Under the pieces are notes generated by a model. The model ran no database searches. It was not told the origin of the DNA and saw only the letters and a program-made list of their open reading frames with translations. 64,000 bases of DNA from NCBI RefSeq assembly GCF_020831925.1, contig NZ_JAFIFQ010000002.1, forward strand, positions 1 to 64,000. Direction: 5' to 3'. How positions within the stretch are numbered: position 1 is the stretch's first letter; each line of letters starts with the position of its first letter. This document shows positions 1,088 through 46,849 of the stretch, in pieces. The position numbers and the translations under genes are program-made. The DNA comes from Alkalimonas sp. GTDB lineage: Bacteria; Pseudomonadota; Gammaproteobacteria; Enterobacterales; Alteromonadaceae.

Positions 1088-1803
1088 GCTTGATTCCCCG
1101 TTAGTTGCAATTCAATGTTGCGCCGCGATGCACCAATATGGCGGCGCATCAATAAATCGGCCAGTTCCCCATCGCGGTTGGCGATGGCATGAATGATGGC
1201 TTTGTGTTCATCAAAAGCCCGCGACACCCGCGGCCCGTTCATGCCTAACTGCACCCGGTACATCCGGACCAGAAAGTATAGCTCATCACATAATATATTG
1301 ATTAAATAAGAATTTTTACTACCAAGAATAATGCGGTAATGAAAGTCCAGATCGCCGGCTTCCTGATAATAACTCTCGCCTTCGCGCACCCGCTGAGTGC
1401 TTAGATGCTGATCCAGCAAGGCGCGTACTTCGGCAATTTCAGCGTCGGTCATTTGCTCGGCAGCCAACCGGCAGGCCAGGCCTTCCAACTCTTCGCGCAG
1501 CTGATACAAGGCGATCAGGCCTTCTTTCGACAGGGTGACCACCCGGGCCCCGGCATTGGGAATGCGTTCAATCAGATGGCAGCGTTCCAGCCGCGCCAGC
1601 GCTTCACGCAGTGGAGCCCGGCTTAAATCAAAGCGTCGTGCCAGTTCCGGCTCACTGATTTTACTGCCAGCCGGGATCTCGCCTTCGACAATAGCGCGCT
1701 GTATTTCCAGCAGCACGCGATCGGCTGCTGTTACCGGCATCCGCCACATTGGGCTTTGCATTGTCATCAAACCATCACCTTGATCAACCTGAATTGTCGA
1801 CAT
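1084..1803 (-). CDS. GntR family transcriptional regulator (FadR/FCD type), likely prp regulator
   Basis: N-terminal wHTH '[37 protein letters not shown]' plus C-terminal FCD domain; overlaps prpB by 4 nt. Confidence 0.92.
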
Positions 1804-1804
1804 A
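1793..1804. promoter_or_regulatory. ATTGTCGACATA, imperfect copy of palindrome at GntR start codon
   Basis: 10/12 match to ATTGTCGACAAT; spans the minus-strand ATG of the regulator. Confidence 0.45.
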
Positions 1805-1865
1805 AAAAAACAATAATGCAGTTTTAGTGGCTTTTAAGCGCTTTGTCAAGCTTGCTAAAGCATCG

Positions 1866-1877
1866 ATTGTCGACAAT
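1866..1877. promoter_or_regulatory. ATTGTCGACAAT perfect palindrome upstream of the GntR-prp operon
   Basis: Perfect 12-bp palindrome, 73 bp from the copy at the start codon. Confidence 0.6.
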
Positions 1878-1990
1878 ACCACCAAAGTTGTAGCCTCTGC
1901 TTGCCAGGTTAAGCTTTCTGCAGCTGACAGATGATCCTGGCATCCGTTTCAAGTACAATAGCCGCCCTTTACTCTTTGGCGACTCGCACC

Positions 1991-3196
1991 ATGTCCACTG
2001 CAAAAACCTACCCGATCGTAACCCTGGCTGCAGGCCGGGAAAAAGCGCTAAAACGGCGCCATCCCTGGATTTTTTCCAAAGCCATTCATGCGGTGAAAGG
2101 CACCCCGAATGCCGGCGATACCGTGGATGTGGTCAGTTTCGACCAAAAATGGCTGTGCCGGGCGGCTTACTCGCCAAAATCGCAAATCCGCTTACGGGTC
2201 TGGACCGACAAACAGGACGAAGCCATTGATCAGGCATTTTTTGAACGGCGCATTGCACAGGCACAAGGCATGCGCAGCATTTGGTTTGCCAACCAGGATA
2301 CCAATGGTTACCGGCTGGTAGCGGCCGAGTCCGATGGACTGCCCGGCATTATCATTGACCGCTTTGCCGACGTGTTGGTGTGTCAGCTGCTTTCGGCCGG
2401 TGCGGAGACCAACCGCAAGCACTTACTGGCCGCCTTAAAAGCCCTGTACCCAGCTTGCAGAATTTACGATCGCTCCGATGTGGAAGTGCGTAAAAAAGAA
2501 GGTCTGGAGCTGAAATCTGGCTGGCTGCATCAGCCACTGGACAGCACCGAAGTGACCATTCGTGAACATGGCATGACGGTGTTGGTGGACGTGGCTGAAG
2601 GCCATAAAACCGGTTTTTATCTGGATCAGCGGGCCAACCGCCTGCGCTTGCGGCAACTGGCAGCCGGCAAAACCGTGCTGAACTGCTTTAGCTACACCGG
2701 TACTTTTGGTGTTGCAGCTTTGCTCGGTGGTGCCAGCCATGTGATTAACGTGGATGCCTCCGACAGCGCCCTTGCCTTATCCGAGCGCCAGTTGGCATTA
2801 AATGGCCTGCAACCAGAGCAGACCAGCCACGTTAAGCAAGATGTGTTTAAACTGCTGCGCCAGTACAAAGAAGAAGGCAAACAGTTTGATTTGCTGATTT
2901 TAGATCCGCCGAAATTTGCCGACAACAAAGGCCAGTTGATGGGAGCCTGTCGCGGCTACAAAGACATCAACCGGGTGGCGATGCAATTGGTGAAACCAGG
3001 TGGCTTACTGCTGACTTTTTCCTGTTCTGGCCTGATGGAAGATACCTTGTTCCAAAAAGTAGTGGCCGATGCGGCACTGGATGCCGGCCGGGACTGTCTG
3101 TTTGTTGAACGCTTGCACCAGGATGCCGATCATCCGGTAGCCAGTTTCTACCCGGAAGGTCATTACCTGAAAGGTCTGATCTGTTACCTGGCTTAA
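1991..3196 (+). CDS. rlmI: 23S rRNA m5C1962 methyltransferase
   Basis: PUA-like N-term, '[14 protein letters not shown]', '[29 protein letters not shown]', 'LILDPPKFA'; likely start MSTAKTYP at 1991 rather than 1931. Confidence 0.93.
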
Positions 3197-3220
3197 TGCT
3201 TATCAATGTATGTAGCTCCT

Positions 3221-3255
3221 GTAAAAAAAGCTGACCCTGCGTCAGCTTTTTTTAC
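3221..3255 (+). terminator. Intrinsic terminator after rlmI
   Basis: Perfect 15-bp inverted repeat GTAAAAAAAGCTGAC-cctgc-GTCAGCTTTTTTTAC. Confidence 0.85.
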
Positions 3256-3406
3256 ATTCAACCGCTATAAAAAAATAATCCTCTTAGTTTTTAACCTTTT
3301 AAAAAATGGCCCGGATTATGCCAGAAAAAAATACCAGCCTTGATTGCTGTGCGACAGACTTAGTTTAAGCCTGTGCTGAAATAATAAAAATCAGAGGATA
3401 AGTAGA

Positions 3407-4402
3407 ATGAAAAAACTGATCTTAATCAGCTGTTTATTAGGTTTTGCTTCAAGCCTGAGTCATGCAGGTGTAATCCGGCACGATGTCGACCCGGATGAAT
3501 ACCTCTGGCTGGCTCGTCAGCAACAATTTGACAGTGTTGGATATACCATCTTCAATGCTGCCGGGGGTGGTACCTTTATTTGCAGTGGCACCGTCATCGC
3601 TAAAAACTGGGTACTTACCGCAGGCCACTGTGTGGATGATGCAATTAACATGACGTTCTATCTCCCACAGTACAATGAAGATAGAACGTCATTAACGCAC
3701 ACTGCCGTTAATGCTTCATCCTGGGTTTGGCATGAGAACTGGAACGGTGACCTGGGCGCTGGCTGGGATATTGGTCTGATGTACTTTGATAACCCCTTTG
3801 ATGTTGAACCGGCGAAACTCTATACCGGCAACAATGAAACTGGGGCTATCACTACCCATGTTGGCTATGGTGCTTCAGGTACCGGCCTCACTGGTGCTAC
3901 CCAGCCACCAGGCACTCGCCGGGCAGGCCAGAATGTGGTTGATGGCTTGGCTTCCTCGGAAGGAACCGGTCAACAATTGCTGTGGTCTGATTTTGATCAC
4001 CCAAATCCAGCCGCTACAGACCCTTGGGGTGACATTTACAATGACTGGGTAAATTACTGGTACAGTAACCATCCGCTTTTTGCAGGCTCTGGCATTAGTT
4101 CTGATAATGCAGCCCTGCCGCTGGAGTACAGCATAGCTGGTGGTGATTCAGGTGGTGGTGCTTTTATTTTTGAAAACGGTGAGTGGCTATTAGCTGGAGT
4201 GCACTCTCTGGGCTGGAACATCAATGGCACCCAGCCACAGGCAGATTATGGTACCTTATTCGCTTCGGTACGCGTCAGTGATCTTACCGATTGGATATAC
4301 AGCTACACAGCCACCGTATCGACACCAGCAAGCCTTGGCATTTTTGCTTCGGGTCTATTACTGCTTTGCTGGCGACGCCGTACCCAGCTCTCTTCACGAT
4401 AG
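3407..4402 (+). CDS. Secreted trypsin-like serine protease with C-terminal PEP-CTERM-like sorting tail
   Basis: Signal peptide; 'NWVLTAGHCVD' and 'GGDSGGGAF' catalytic motifs; C-term 'STPASLGIFASGLLLLCWRRR'. Confidence 0.85.
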   Translation: MKKLILISCLLGFASSLSHAGVIRHDVDPDEYLWLARQQQFDSVGYTIFNAAGGGTFICSGTVIAKNWVLTAGHCVDDAINMTFYLPQYNEDRTSLTHTAVNASSWVWHENWNGDLGAGWDIGLMYFDNPFDVEPAKLYTGNNETGAITTHVGYGASGTGLTGATQPPGTRRAGQNVVDGLASSEGTGQQLLWSDFDHPNPAATDPWGDIYNDWVNYWYSNHPLFAGSGISSDNAALPLEYSIAGGDSGGGAFIFENGEWLLAGVHSLGWNINGTQPQADYGTLFASVRVSDLTDWIYSYTATVSTPASLGIFASGLLLLCWRRRTQLSSR

Positions 4403-44369: not shown

Positions 44370-44396
44370 GCGCTCTGCTGTTTAACGCATTATTTT

Positions 44397-44486
44397 GAGC
44401 AACACCGCTGCTCCATGTATCCTTTCGAGCAGCACCGCTGCTTTATCTATCCGTCAGGGCAGCACTGCTGCCCTATTCCACCATCT
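44397..44486. repeat. Three 30-bp-period imperfect tandem repeats, each with a GC-rich palindrome
   Basis: Units begin at 44397 (GAGCAACACCGCTGCTC), 44427 (GAGCAGCACCGCTGCTT), 44457 (GGGCAGCACTGCTGCCC). Confidence 0.8.
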
Positions 44487-44871
44487 TTAAAATCGGTTCC
44501 ATAATGTCCTGCATGGTCACAAGACCTGCCAGTTCGTTATTGTTCAGCACCAATACCCGCTTAATGCGCTGCTGACTCATCAACGCCGCTACATGCTTCA
44601 CTGCCAGATCTTCACCCACCGCAACCACCGGCTTGGTGTAAATGTCGTACACATGCAACAAATCAATATCACCGCTTTCTGCGACGATGGTTTTTAAAAT
44701 GTTGGTGTGAGTGATCAGGCCATACGCATCATGCGGCTGCTGCTTTTCCACTACCAGCGATTTTAAATCGTGCTTTTTCATCAGGCTGAGCGCTTCGCGC
44801 AACGTAGTAAAGGGCGAGACCGTCACTACCTGTTTGACCATAATGTCTTTGACCAGTCGGACCGAATCCAT
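44473..44871 (-). CDS. CBS domain pair protein
   Basis: 'VKDIMVKQVVTVSPFTTLREALSLMKKHDLKSLVVE' and 'HVAALMSQQRIKRVLVLNNNELAGLVTMQDIM'. Confidence 0.93.
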   Translation of the reverse strand: MDSVRLVKDIMVKQVVTVSPFTTLREALSLMKKHDLKSLVVEKQQPHDAYGLITHTNILKTIVAESGDIDLLHVYDIYTKPVVAVGEDLAVKHVAALMSQQRIKRVLVLNNNELAGLVTMQDIMEPILKMVE

Positions 44872-44872
44872 A

Positions 44873-45223
44873 TCAGAGTTCCTCTTTTAAATGTTGTTCA
44901 AACCGCTGCACCTGTTTGACATCAATGCCGGCTAAATGCTCCAGTGGTACGGTAAATACCAGGCCTTCCGAGCCGCCCTCGTCTTTGGCAACCACCTGCT
45001 TGATGGCCTTTAACACCCCAAGCGATAAGGACTTTTCCAACACCATCAGTAGCACCGTCTGGCTGCCTTCAAAGCTCAGGCCAAAAAAGGTTTTGCGCTC
45101 ATCGCAAGGAATGCCTTTGCCTGCCAGTATGGTGATACCAGTGGCGCCATGTTTGCGGGCGGCCTTGATGGTTTGCTCTTCGTATTCATCGTTGACGATA
45201 GCAACCAGGGCTGAGAATTTCAT
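44873..45223 (-). CDS. PII-like (nitrogen-regulator-fold) protein
   Basis: 116 aa, 'ALVAIVNDEYEEQTIKAARKHGATGITILAGKGI...GLVFTVPLEHLAGI' matches the PII ferredoxin-like pattern. Confidence 0.85.
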   Translation of the reverse strand: MKFSALVAIVNDEYEEQTIKAARKHGATGITILAGKGIPCDERKTFFGLSFEGSQTVLLMVLEKSLSLGVLKAIKQVVAKDEGGSEGLVFTVPLEHLAGIDVKQVQRFEQHLKEEL

Positions 45224-46707
45224 TGGGGTTGTCTCCTGAATTTGGCGGCGTACTCCATTAAAATAGCGTACGCCATCACTGTAATAATCGGGAATATCGA
45301 CGCAAAAGCAATCAGGCCAAAGCCATCAATCAACACATTACGCCCTTCAATATGAGTAGCAAGGCCAATGCCTAAGGCAGTCACTAAGGGTACTGTCACT
45401 TCCGACGTGGTGACACCGCCCAAATCAAACGCCAGCGCAATGATGTATTTGGGTGCAAGCGCTGTCAGTACGATAACCAGCAGATAGCCCGCCATAATGT
45501 AATAGTGGATGGAGTCACCGGTAATAATGCGGTGCACACCGACAGCAATACCTATCGCCACCCCAAATGCAACAATGATGCGGATCACACTGCCTTTTAG
45601 CCGGCCCGGTGCGGCTTGCTCCGCCTGCTGGCCCACCGCAATCAACGCAGGCTCGGCCATGGTGGTGGCAAAACCAATCATAAAAGCAAACAAATAGATA
45701 AAGGGCAGATAATTACGCGCCATCAATTGCTCGGCCATGCCCTCACCAATGGGGAACAGGCCAAGCTTTAAGCCAATGACAAAGGCATAGAGCCCCAGCA
45801 GCACCATGACAAAGCCAAAAATAACTTTCACTGGGTTATTCAGTGGTTTGCGCAGTACTAAGTATTGGAAAAATAACACCACGAATATAATCGGCAGCAC
45901 ATCACGCAACATGGTAAGTAAGTCGAGCAGCATCTGCAGCAGTGGATGCACAGCAGTGATCTCTGCCGAAGCCAGCTCCAGTACAAGTTCCGGCGTAGGC
46001 GCTACGTTGTACACCCAAATGCCATAAAGCTGCACACTGATCATCGGCACCATCACCGCCATGGCCACCAGGCCAAAGCCATCCATTAAGGGATTACGGC
46101 CACGAATGGATGCCGCTAAACCTAACCCAAGGGCCGCAATTAAAGGCACGGTGACAATATTGGTGGTGACTCCACCTGAGTCGTAGGCAAGGCCGACAAT
46201 TTCTTCCGGCGCAAACCAGGTCACCGTGACCACCAGGATATAGCCGATGATCATGTACCAATGGATCGGATGGCCCAAAATAATGCGCAATACGCCAATG
46301 GCCATCACCGCCCCCACCGACAGCGCGACAATCAGCCGCAGCGTCAGGCCATCGACCCGGCCATCACTGATTTGCTCAGCCTGCTGCGCCACCGCAATCA
46401 ATGCAGGCTCAGCCACTACGGCTGAAAAGCCCATGGCAAAGCCAAAGGCCATTAAAATGGGAATGGAGCCTTTACGGGCAAACTGATTGGCCAGGCTTTT
46501 CCCAACCGGAAAGATACTGAATTCCAGCCCCTGTAAAAACATCGCCACACCCAATGCCACGATGGCAAGACCGAGCGTCAGCATCCAGGGATCGTTTGGC
46601 ATCTGGCGTAAAATCACCGCCTGGAAAAAGACCACCACCGCCACAATCGGCAGCAGGTTTTTACTGGCATGCAGTATTTGATGCAGGAAATCCTTGAGAA
46701 ACTGCAC
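45220..46707 (-). CDS. DUF1538 polytopic membrane protein with internal duplication
   Basis: Duplicated motifs EPALIAVxQQAEQ, D(S/L)GGVTTxxVTVPLxxALGxGLA, GRNxLxDGFGLxA. Confidence 0.92.
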   Translation of the reverse strand: MQFLKDFLHQILHASKNLLPIVAVVVFFQAVILRQMPNDPWMLTLGLAIVALGVAMFLQGLEFSIFPVGKSLANQFARKGSIPILMAFGFAMGFSAVVAEPALIAVAQQAEQISDGRVDGLTLRLIVALSVGAVMAIGVLRIILGHPIHWYMIIGYILVVTVTWFAPEEIVGLAYDSGGVTTNIVTVPLIAALGLGLAASIRGRNPLMDGFGLVAMAVMVPMISVQLYGIWVYNVAPTPELVLELASAEITAVHPLLQMLLDLLTMLRDVLPIIFVVLFFQYLVLRKPLNNPVKVIFGFVMVLLGLYAFVIGLKLGLFPIGEGMAEQLMARNYLPFIYLFAFMIGFATTMAEPALIAVGQQAEQAAPGRLKGSVIRIIVAFGVAIGIAVGVHRIITGDSIHYYIMAGYLLVIVLTALAPKYIIALAFDLGGVTTSEVTVPLVTALGIGLATHIEGRNVLIDGFGLIAFASIFPIITVMAYAILMEYAAKFRRQPQ

Positions 46708-46818
46708 TCAGCCTCCAATTCAAAAAGCAGTCTATAGAAAAAAGCAACTGATTGTATTTATATATTTTTATCAGCCTAGAGTGTAGCTGATTTTACGTCT
46801 GTTTTTATTGATCAGAAA

Positions 46819-46849
46819 TAAAAATCCCGGCTTTAACCGGGATTTTTAA
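46819..46849. terminator. Terminator downstream of glgP (minus), potentially bidirectional
   Basis: AAAAATCCCGG-cttta-ACCGGGATTTTT. Confidence 0.8.

Follow-up and report, generated by a model that had tools for sequence, protein, structure and literature searches.

Most of what is known about PII proteins concerns the control of nitrogen and carbon. Their control of transporters by insertion of the T-loop has been established for AmtB-GlnK and for SbtA-SbtB (PMC8352866). The transporter family that concerns us here has its described member in UmpAB of Halomonas zhaodongensis, a heterodimer, described in 2017, that was cloned by complementation of E. coli KNabc, whose growth at 0.4 M NaCl it restores (PMC5484666). 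In vesicles, UmpAB performs pH-dependent Na+(Li+,K+)/H+ antiport with an optimum at pH 9.0, for which K0.5 values were given (PMC5484666). The clone assayed carried umpA and umpB but neither a PII nor a CBS gene, and the paper is silent on both (PMC5484666).

In the present work we analysed a window of 64,000 nucleotides from Alkalimonas sp., by which we mean the whole stretch of DNA studied, containing a DUF1538 gene followed by genes for a PII-like protein and a CBS-pair protein. The sequence-only reading had taken DUF1538 for a family of no assigned function, which is wrong in view of the published antiporter, and had presented the transporter and its two sensors as an undescribed unit. Of the latter idea, the part that concerns the transporter has to be given up, as UmpAB already defines a (little-studied) antiporter family with a published function. 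What stands, and appears to be new, is the conserved linkage of this family with PII and CBS sensor-type proteins: in the literature available without subscription, we found no work linking either protein to the UmpAB/DUF1538 antiporter.

Organization of the Locus

The locus comprises three ORFs on the minus strand, in the order DUF1538, divergent PII and CBS pair. The DUF1538 gene (45220-46707) starts with GTG and encodes a protein of 495 aa with two DUF1538 domains, a fused UmpA-UmpB that is predicted to be a Na+(Li+,K+)/H+ antiporter. It is followed by the gene for a dedicated PII-like protein of 116 aa (44873-45223, minus strand), recognized by its Pfam match, its fold and a check of its residues, and by the gene for a stand-alone CBS-pair protein of 132 aa (44473-44871, minus strand), recognized by its two Pfam matches and by motif counts. 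The DUF1538 stop and the PII start share a 4-nt overlap (ATGA, 45220-45223, minus strand), which points to translational coupling, and a gap of 1 nt (44872, minus strand) separates the PII stop from the CBS start; the ORFs, the overlap and the gap are all as first claimed for this DNA. Shine-Dalgarno-like sequences GGAGG (46712-46716, minus strand), AGGAG and GAGG lie ahead of the DUF1538, PII and CBS starts, respectively.

Upstream, the glycogen phosphorylase gene ends in an intrinsic terminator of 13 pairs with a T tail (46819-46848, minus strand), and thus the three genes form a transcription unit separate from the glycogen genes. Scanning for sigma-70 promoters upstream of the unit gave nothing exceeding chance. 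At the opposite end, strong hairpins (44380-44472, minus strand; fold z-score -4.2) are placed between the CBS gene and a convergent rnk-like gene, and are probably the point where transcription ends. Three related GC-rich palindromes are found in this convergent gap, GGGCAGCAGTGCTGCCC and two others, and the first of them is also present in A. amylolytica.

The family assignments are of different strength. PF07556 matches the DUF1538 protein twice (1.3e-135, 449.9 bits, against a gathering score of 22.6) and PF00571 matches the CBS protein twice (2.5e-24), while PF00543 matches the PII-like protein with 6.3e-06 and 26.9 bits, against a cut-off of 25. Comparison with A. amylolytica gave dN/dS values of 0.033 for DUF1538, 0.018 for PII and 0 for CBS; all 132 residues of the CBS protein are identical in both organisms despite a dS near 0.6. 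The DUF1538 protein shares 95-97% identity with its counterparts in A. amylolytica and in an Alkalimonas MAG.

The Fused UmpA-UmpB Protein

What had been read as a single DUF1538 protein is in fact a tandem of two such domains. Its N half matches the NCBIfam model of UmpA (NF041627) and its C half that of UmpB (NF041628). The scores, 445.8 and 403.6 bits, fall short of the curated cut-offs for these equivalogs, 490 and 500. The UmpA cut-off is passed by none of 61 genomes of the genus of Halomonas campaniensis either, the best score being 443 bits; broken or fragmentary umpA copies are seen in some genomes of this genus. In a tree of the halves, from which one out-of-frame split UmpB row was ignored, split UmpA sequences cluster with the N half and split UmpB sequences with the C half, which places the duplication before the fusion. 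The fused DUF1538 proteins of Clostridia form a separate group. As the Alkalimonas halves are about 46-50% identical to split UmpA and UmpB of Halomonas and score below the equivalog cut-offs, we infer antiport for the Alkalimonas protein, with good reason, from the published homolog.

The AlphaFold2 model of the fused protein is helical (pLDDT 80, pTM 0.80). Two similar halves can be distinguished in it, with short, possibly re-entrant helices after the AEPAL and GGVTT motifs. A search of this model against the folds in the PDB returned nothing below E 0.001, with TM-scores of about 0.23 or less, and therefore we claim no transporter class; the modelled protein is possibly a transporter fold that has yet to be solved.

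The role in cation transport deserves some discussion, since UmpAB-type DUF1538 proteins might natively move another substrate, such as a metabolite (organic or inorganic) that is exchanged for Na+ or H+, so that antiport in E. coli would be a side activity and PII and CBS would gate metabolite transport. Carbon/nitrogen status is what PII proteins usually report on, the PDB fold search did not point to a class of transporter, and the antiport assignment comes from one study of one homolog at the identity given above, in a KNabc screen of a kind that has brought up a good many unrelated proteins (RDD, UPF0118, MdrP, MceT) as antiporters. However, the antiport recorded in vesicles was cation-dependent, with K0.5 values (PMC5484666), and the genera of the named hosts of fused loci are largely marine, saline or soda-lake. 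Moreover, a predictor of growth pH picks DUF1538 among Pfam families, beside Mrp and K+ transporters (PMC13255231), which is independent support for an antiporter role. Thus, we think that another native substrate is rather unlikely, and we keep cation/proton antiport as the preferred reading.

Conservation of the Linkage across Genomes

A lack of conserved linkage in other genomes, which the sequence-only reading had named as grounds for its own refutation, is decisively contradicted by neighbourhood comparison. Among the fused umpAB loci of named genomes, the PII gene comes next in 80 of 80, the CBS gene is present in 77 of 80 and the 4-nt overlap with PII is kept in 77 of 80; as the order is retained in relatives to this extent, the arrangement is not due to chance. 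Split umpA-umpB loci of Halomonas have PII in 16/16 and CBS in 8/16. We also surveyed 299 Pseudomonadota genomes, of which 116 were DUF1538-positive and 183 negative. The UmpAB-type PII subfamily is carried by 112 of the positive genomes vs. 21 of the negative ones, a co-occurrence with a Fisher p of ~2e-54 that is uncorrected for relatedness. In this sample, 84 of 111 strong PII matches lie no more than 3 kb from a DUF1538 gene, and in the best 30 loci PII adjoins DUF1538 in 29 and CBS is present in 21.

PII is thus a near-obligate partner of UmpAB, and CBS is the usual third member in Gammaproteobacteria. The CBS gene is absent from many alphaproteobacterial loci, from some Halomonas loci and from Clostridia, and therefore it is dispensable. 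In the Clostridia (four loci), the fused DUF1538 gene is followed by that of a protein of ~220 aa in which two PII domains stand in tandem.

It could also be proposed that PII and CBS act mainly on other enzymes or regulators, co-transcription merely tying their amount to that of the antiporter. One family offers an argument for it, with PII-CBS placed behind a malic enzyme-phosphotransacetylase gene (two loci, and a third that is incomplete) and umpAB elsewhere in the genome, on another contig. The 21 of 183 DUF1538-negative genomes with PII might be added, even if most of these matches are weak. Near-universal adjacency and the retained overlap speak against this proposal, as do the genomes that have both fused and split systems, in which every PII matches its neighbouring transporter in class: identity to the Alkalimonas PII is 53-60% within the same class vs. 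25-30% for the other class. We therefore regard separate targets as improbable, and control of the adjacent transporter remains our reading of the linkage. Orphan copies of the PII gene were also seen close to ETF-QO, MutS or Dus genes, and these look like chance neighbours.

Split and fused systems occur side by side in several genomes of Nitrincola, Marinospirillum and Marinobacter (six cases). Most of these genomes have one PII per system plus an extra PII of a second class.

The PII-like and CBS Proteins

The PII-like protein has the ferredoxin-like fold of PII, as judged by AlphaFold2 and Foldseek (best match GlnK1, 9.2e-07, probability 1.00). A PDB sequence search with the single protein gave no match, and a family profile was needed instead. 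In the family, the equivalents of T29, G35 and G89 are invariant or nearly so. The canonical residues that contact ATP phosphate have been lost: among 65 members, the K90 position is Leu, Ile or Val, R101 is Gly in 65/65 and R103 is mostly Asp; the profile-based comparison aligned this C-terminal region as well. Because of these losses, no ligand can be named for the protein. No tyrosine is found at the position aligned with the uridylylated Tyr51 in the 65 members, the T-loop alignment being approximate. As mafft places the T-loop gap poorly, our statements on this loop rest on conservation within the family and on the absence of Tyr rather than on exact positions.

This agrees with the first reading, which had described a PII-like protein devoid of the canonical uridylylation context and had placed it outside the Ntr system. 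Canonical GlnB and GlnK are encoded separately in the same Alkalimonas genome and, together with the loss of K90, R101 and R103, this led us to reject a canonical GlnK role for the PII-like protein.

In the main PII class the T-loop hardly varies and reads (K/R)K(T/S)FFG(L/M), which in Alkalimonas is the short RKTFFGLS; such a conserved hydrophobic loop would fit a docking role. A second class, with the T-loop GIFGLE, adjoins some systems. In A. amylolytica a PII of this second class (L053, 3467-4039, minus strand) is divergently upstream of umpAB, and adjoins a convergent gene (1470-3470) resembling KefB/KefC-type cation/proton antiporters; Alkalimonas sp. has its glycogen genes in this place.

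The loss of K90, R101 and R103 would also be compatible with the PII-like protein being a subunit of UmpAB that has a part in structure or assembly and senses no ligand. We consider this very improbable, since UmpAB forms an active heterodimer in the absence of PII (PMC5484666), the T29, G35 and G89 equivalents have been preserved, and SbtB and CPII are PII-like proteins that bind ligands at altered sites. A sensory role is thus the one that we continue with.

The CBS protein keeps the adenine-nucleotide motif Ghh(T/S)xx(D/N) twice, as GLITHTN and GLVTMQD; relatives almost always have the first and commonly the second. Judging from these motifs, an adenine nucleotide is the probable ligand of the CBS pair. 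In the Alkalimonas genome (95% complete) there is no c-di-AMP cyclase (DAC) domain, and therefore c-di-AMP is unlikely as a messenger of its own making.

Proposed Mechanism

UmpAB is active in E. coli in the absence of PII and CBS, so these proteins are not needed for transport and should be seen as regulators rather than as parts of the transport path. The linkage to sensor-type proteins suggests that the antiporter is switched by intracellular signals. We propose a cation/proton antiporter that would be gated by the T-loop of its dedicated PII, while the CBS pair would serve as another sensor, probably of adenine nucleotides; we give this reading as a whole an even chance of being correct. 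The PII-like protein, which probably forms a trimer, would dock on the cytoplasmic face of UmpAB via the conserved loop and might hold the antiporter down or release it, much as GlnK does to AmtB, and SbtB to SbtA. A further input would come from the CBS pair, whose target might be PII or the antiporter itself. In this way, a halo-alkaliphile would adjust its export of Na+ or K+, and its uptake of protons, to how it stands for energy or metabolites. Antiport by the Alkalimonas protein, docking, ligands and direction of control are what we infer here; the gene structure, the fusion, the linkage, the PII fold, the loss of canonical residues and the retained CBS motifs were observed directly.

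Somewhat more tentatively, we think that direct control of a Na+ or K+/H+ antiporter by a PII T-loop and a free CBS protein might be a widespread and undescribed system, one that would tie the control of pH and salt to the energy status of the cell without recourse to nitrogen signalling or c-di-AMP. If true, it would be a new branch of PII signalling, devoted to ion and pH homeostasis, in a DUF1538 family that 116 of the 299 sampled Pseudomonadota genomes (more than a third) contain and that also occurs in Clostridia. It would also explain how UmpAB came to be characterized without any idea of its regulation.

Comparison with Known Systems

AmtB-GlnK has the same order of a transporter gene followed by a PII gene, and its T-loop docking is the model that we have adopted. 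However, GlnK has Tyr51 and a full ATP/2-oxoglutarate site, which the Alkalimonas protein lacks. SbtA-SbtB is alike in having a transporter and a dedicated PII-like protein with the PII fold in one operon, outside the GlnD/Ntr cycle. It differs in that SbtA is a bicarbonate/Na+ symporter unrelated to DUF1538, the T-loop of SbtB is another one, and the Alkalimonas locus has the additional CBS protein. The CGPxGC C-terminal loop of some SbtB homologs is not present in the Alkalimonas PII sequence, whose partner is DUF1538 and not sbtA. DAB-type bicarbonate uptake was dropped as a parallel, as the paper on the DAB2 structure makes no mention of PII.

CPII and PstA share with the Alkalimonas protein a PII fold with an altered ligand site. 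Unlike it, CPII has links to carboxysomes and bicarbonate, and PstA depends on c-di-AMP, for which the Alkalimonas genome has no cyclase domain. MgtE, ClC and OpuA are similar in that CBS pairs with nucleotide motifs are tied to membrane transport; in them the pair is fused to the transporter or to its ATPase, whereas in Alkalimonas it is a free protein of 132 aa.

The closest system is UmpAB of H. zhaodongensis, which consists of two proteins, whereas Alkalimonas has a single fused protein scoring below the equivalog cut-offs. Both halves belong to the same Pfam family, with UmpA-like N and UmpB-like C parts in the Alkalimonas protein, and Halomonas operons of the UmpAB type also carry PII, and often CBS, as this locus does.
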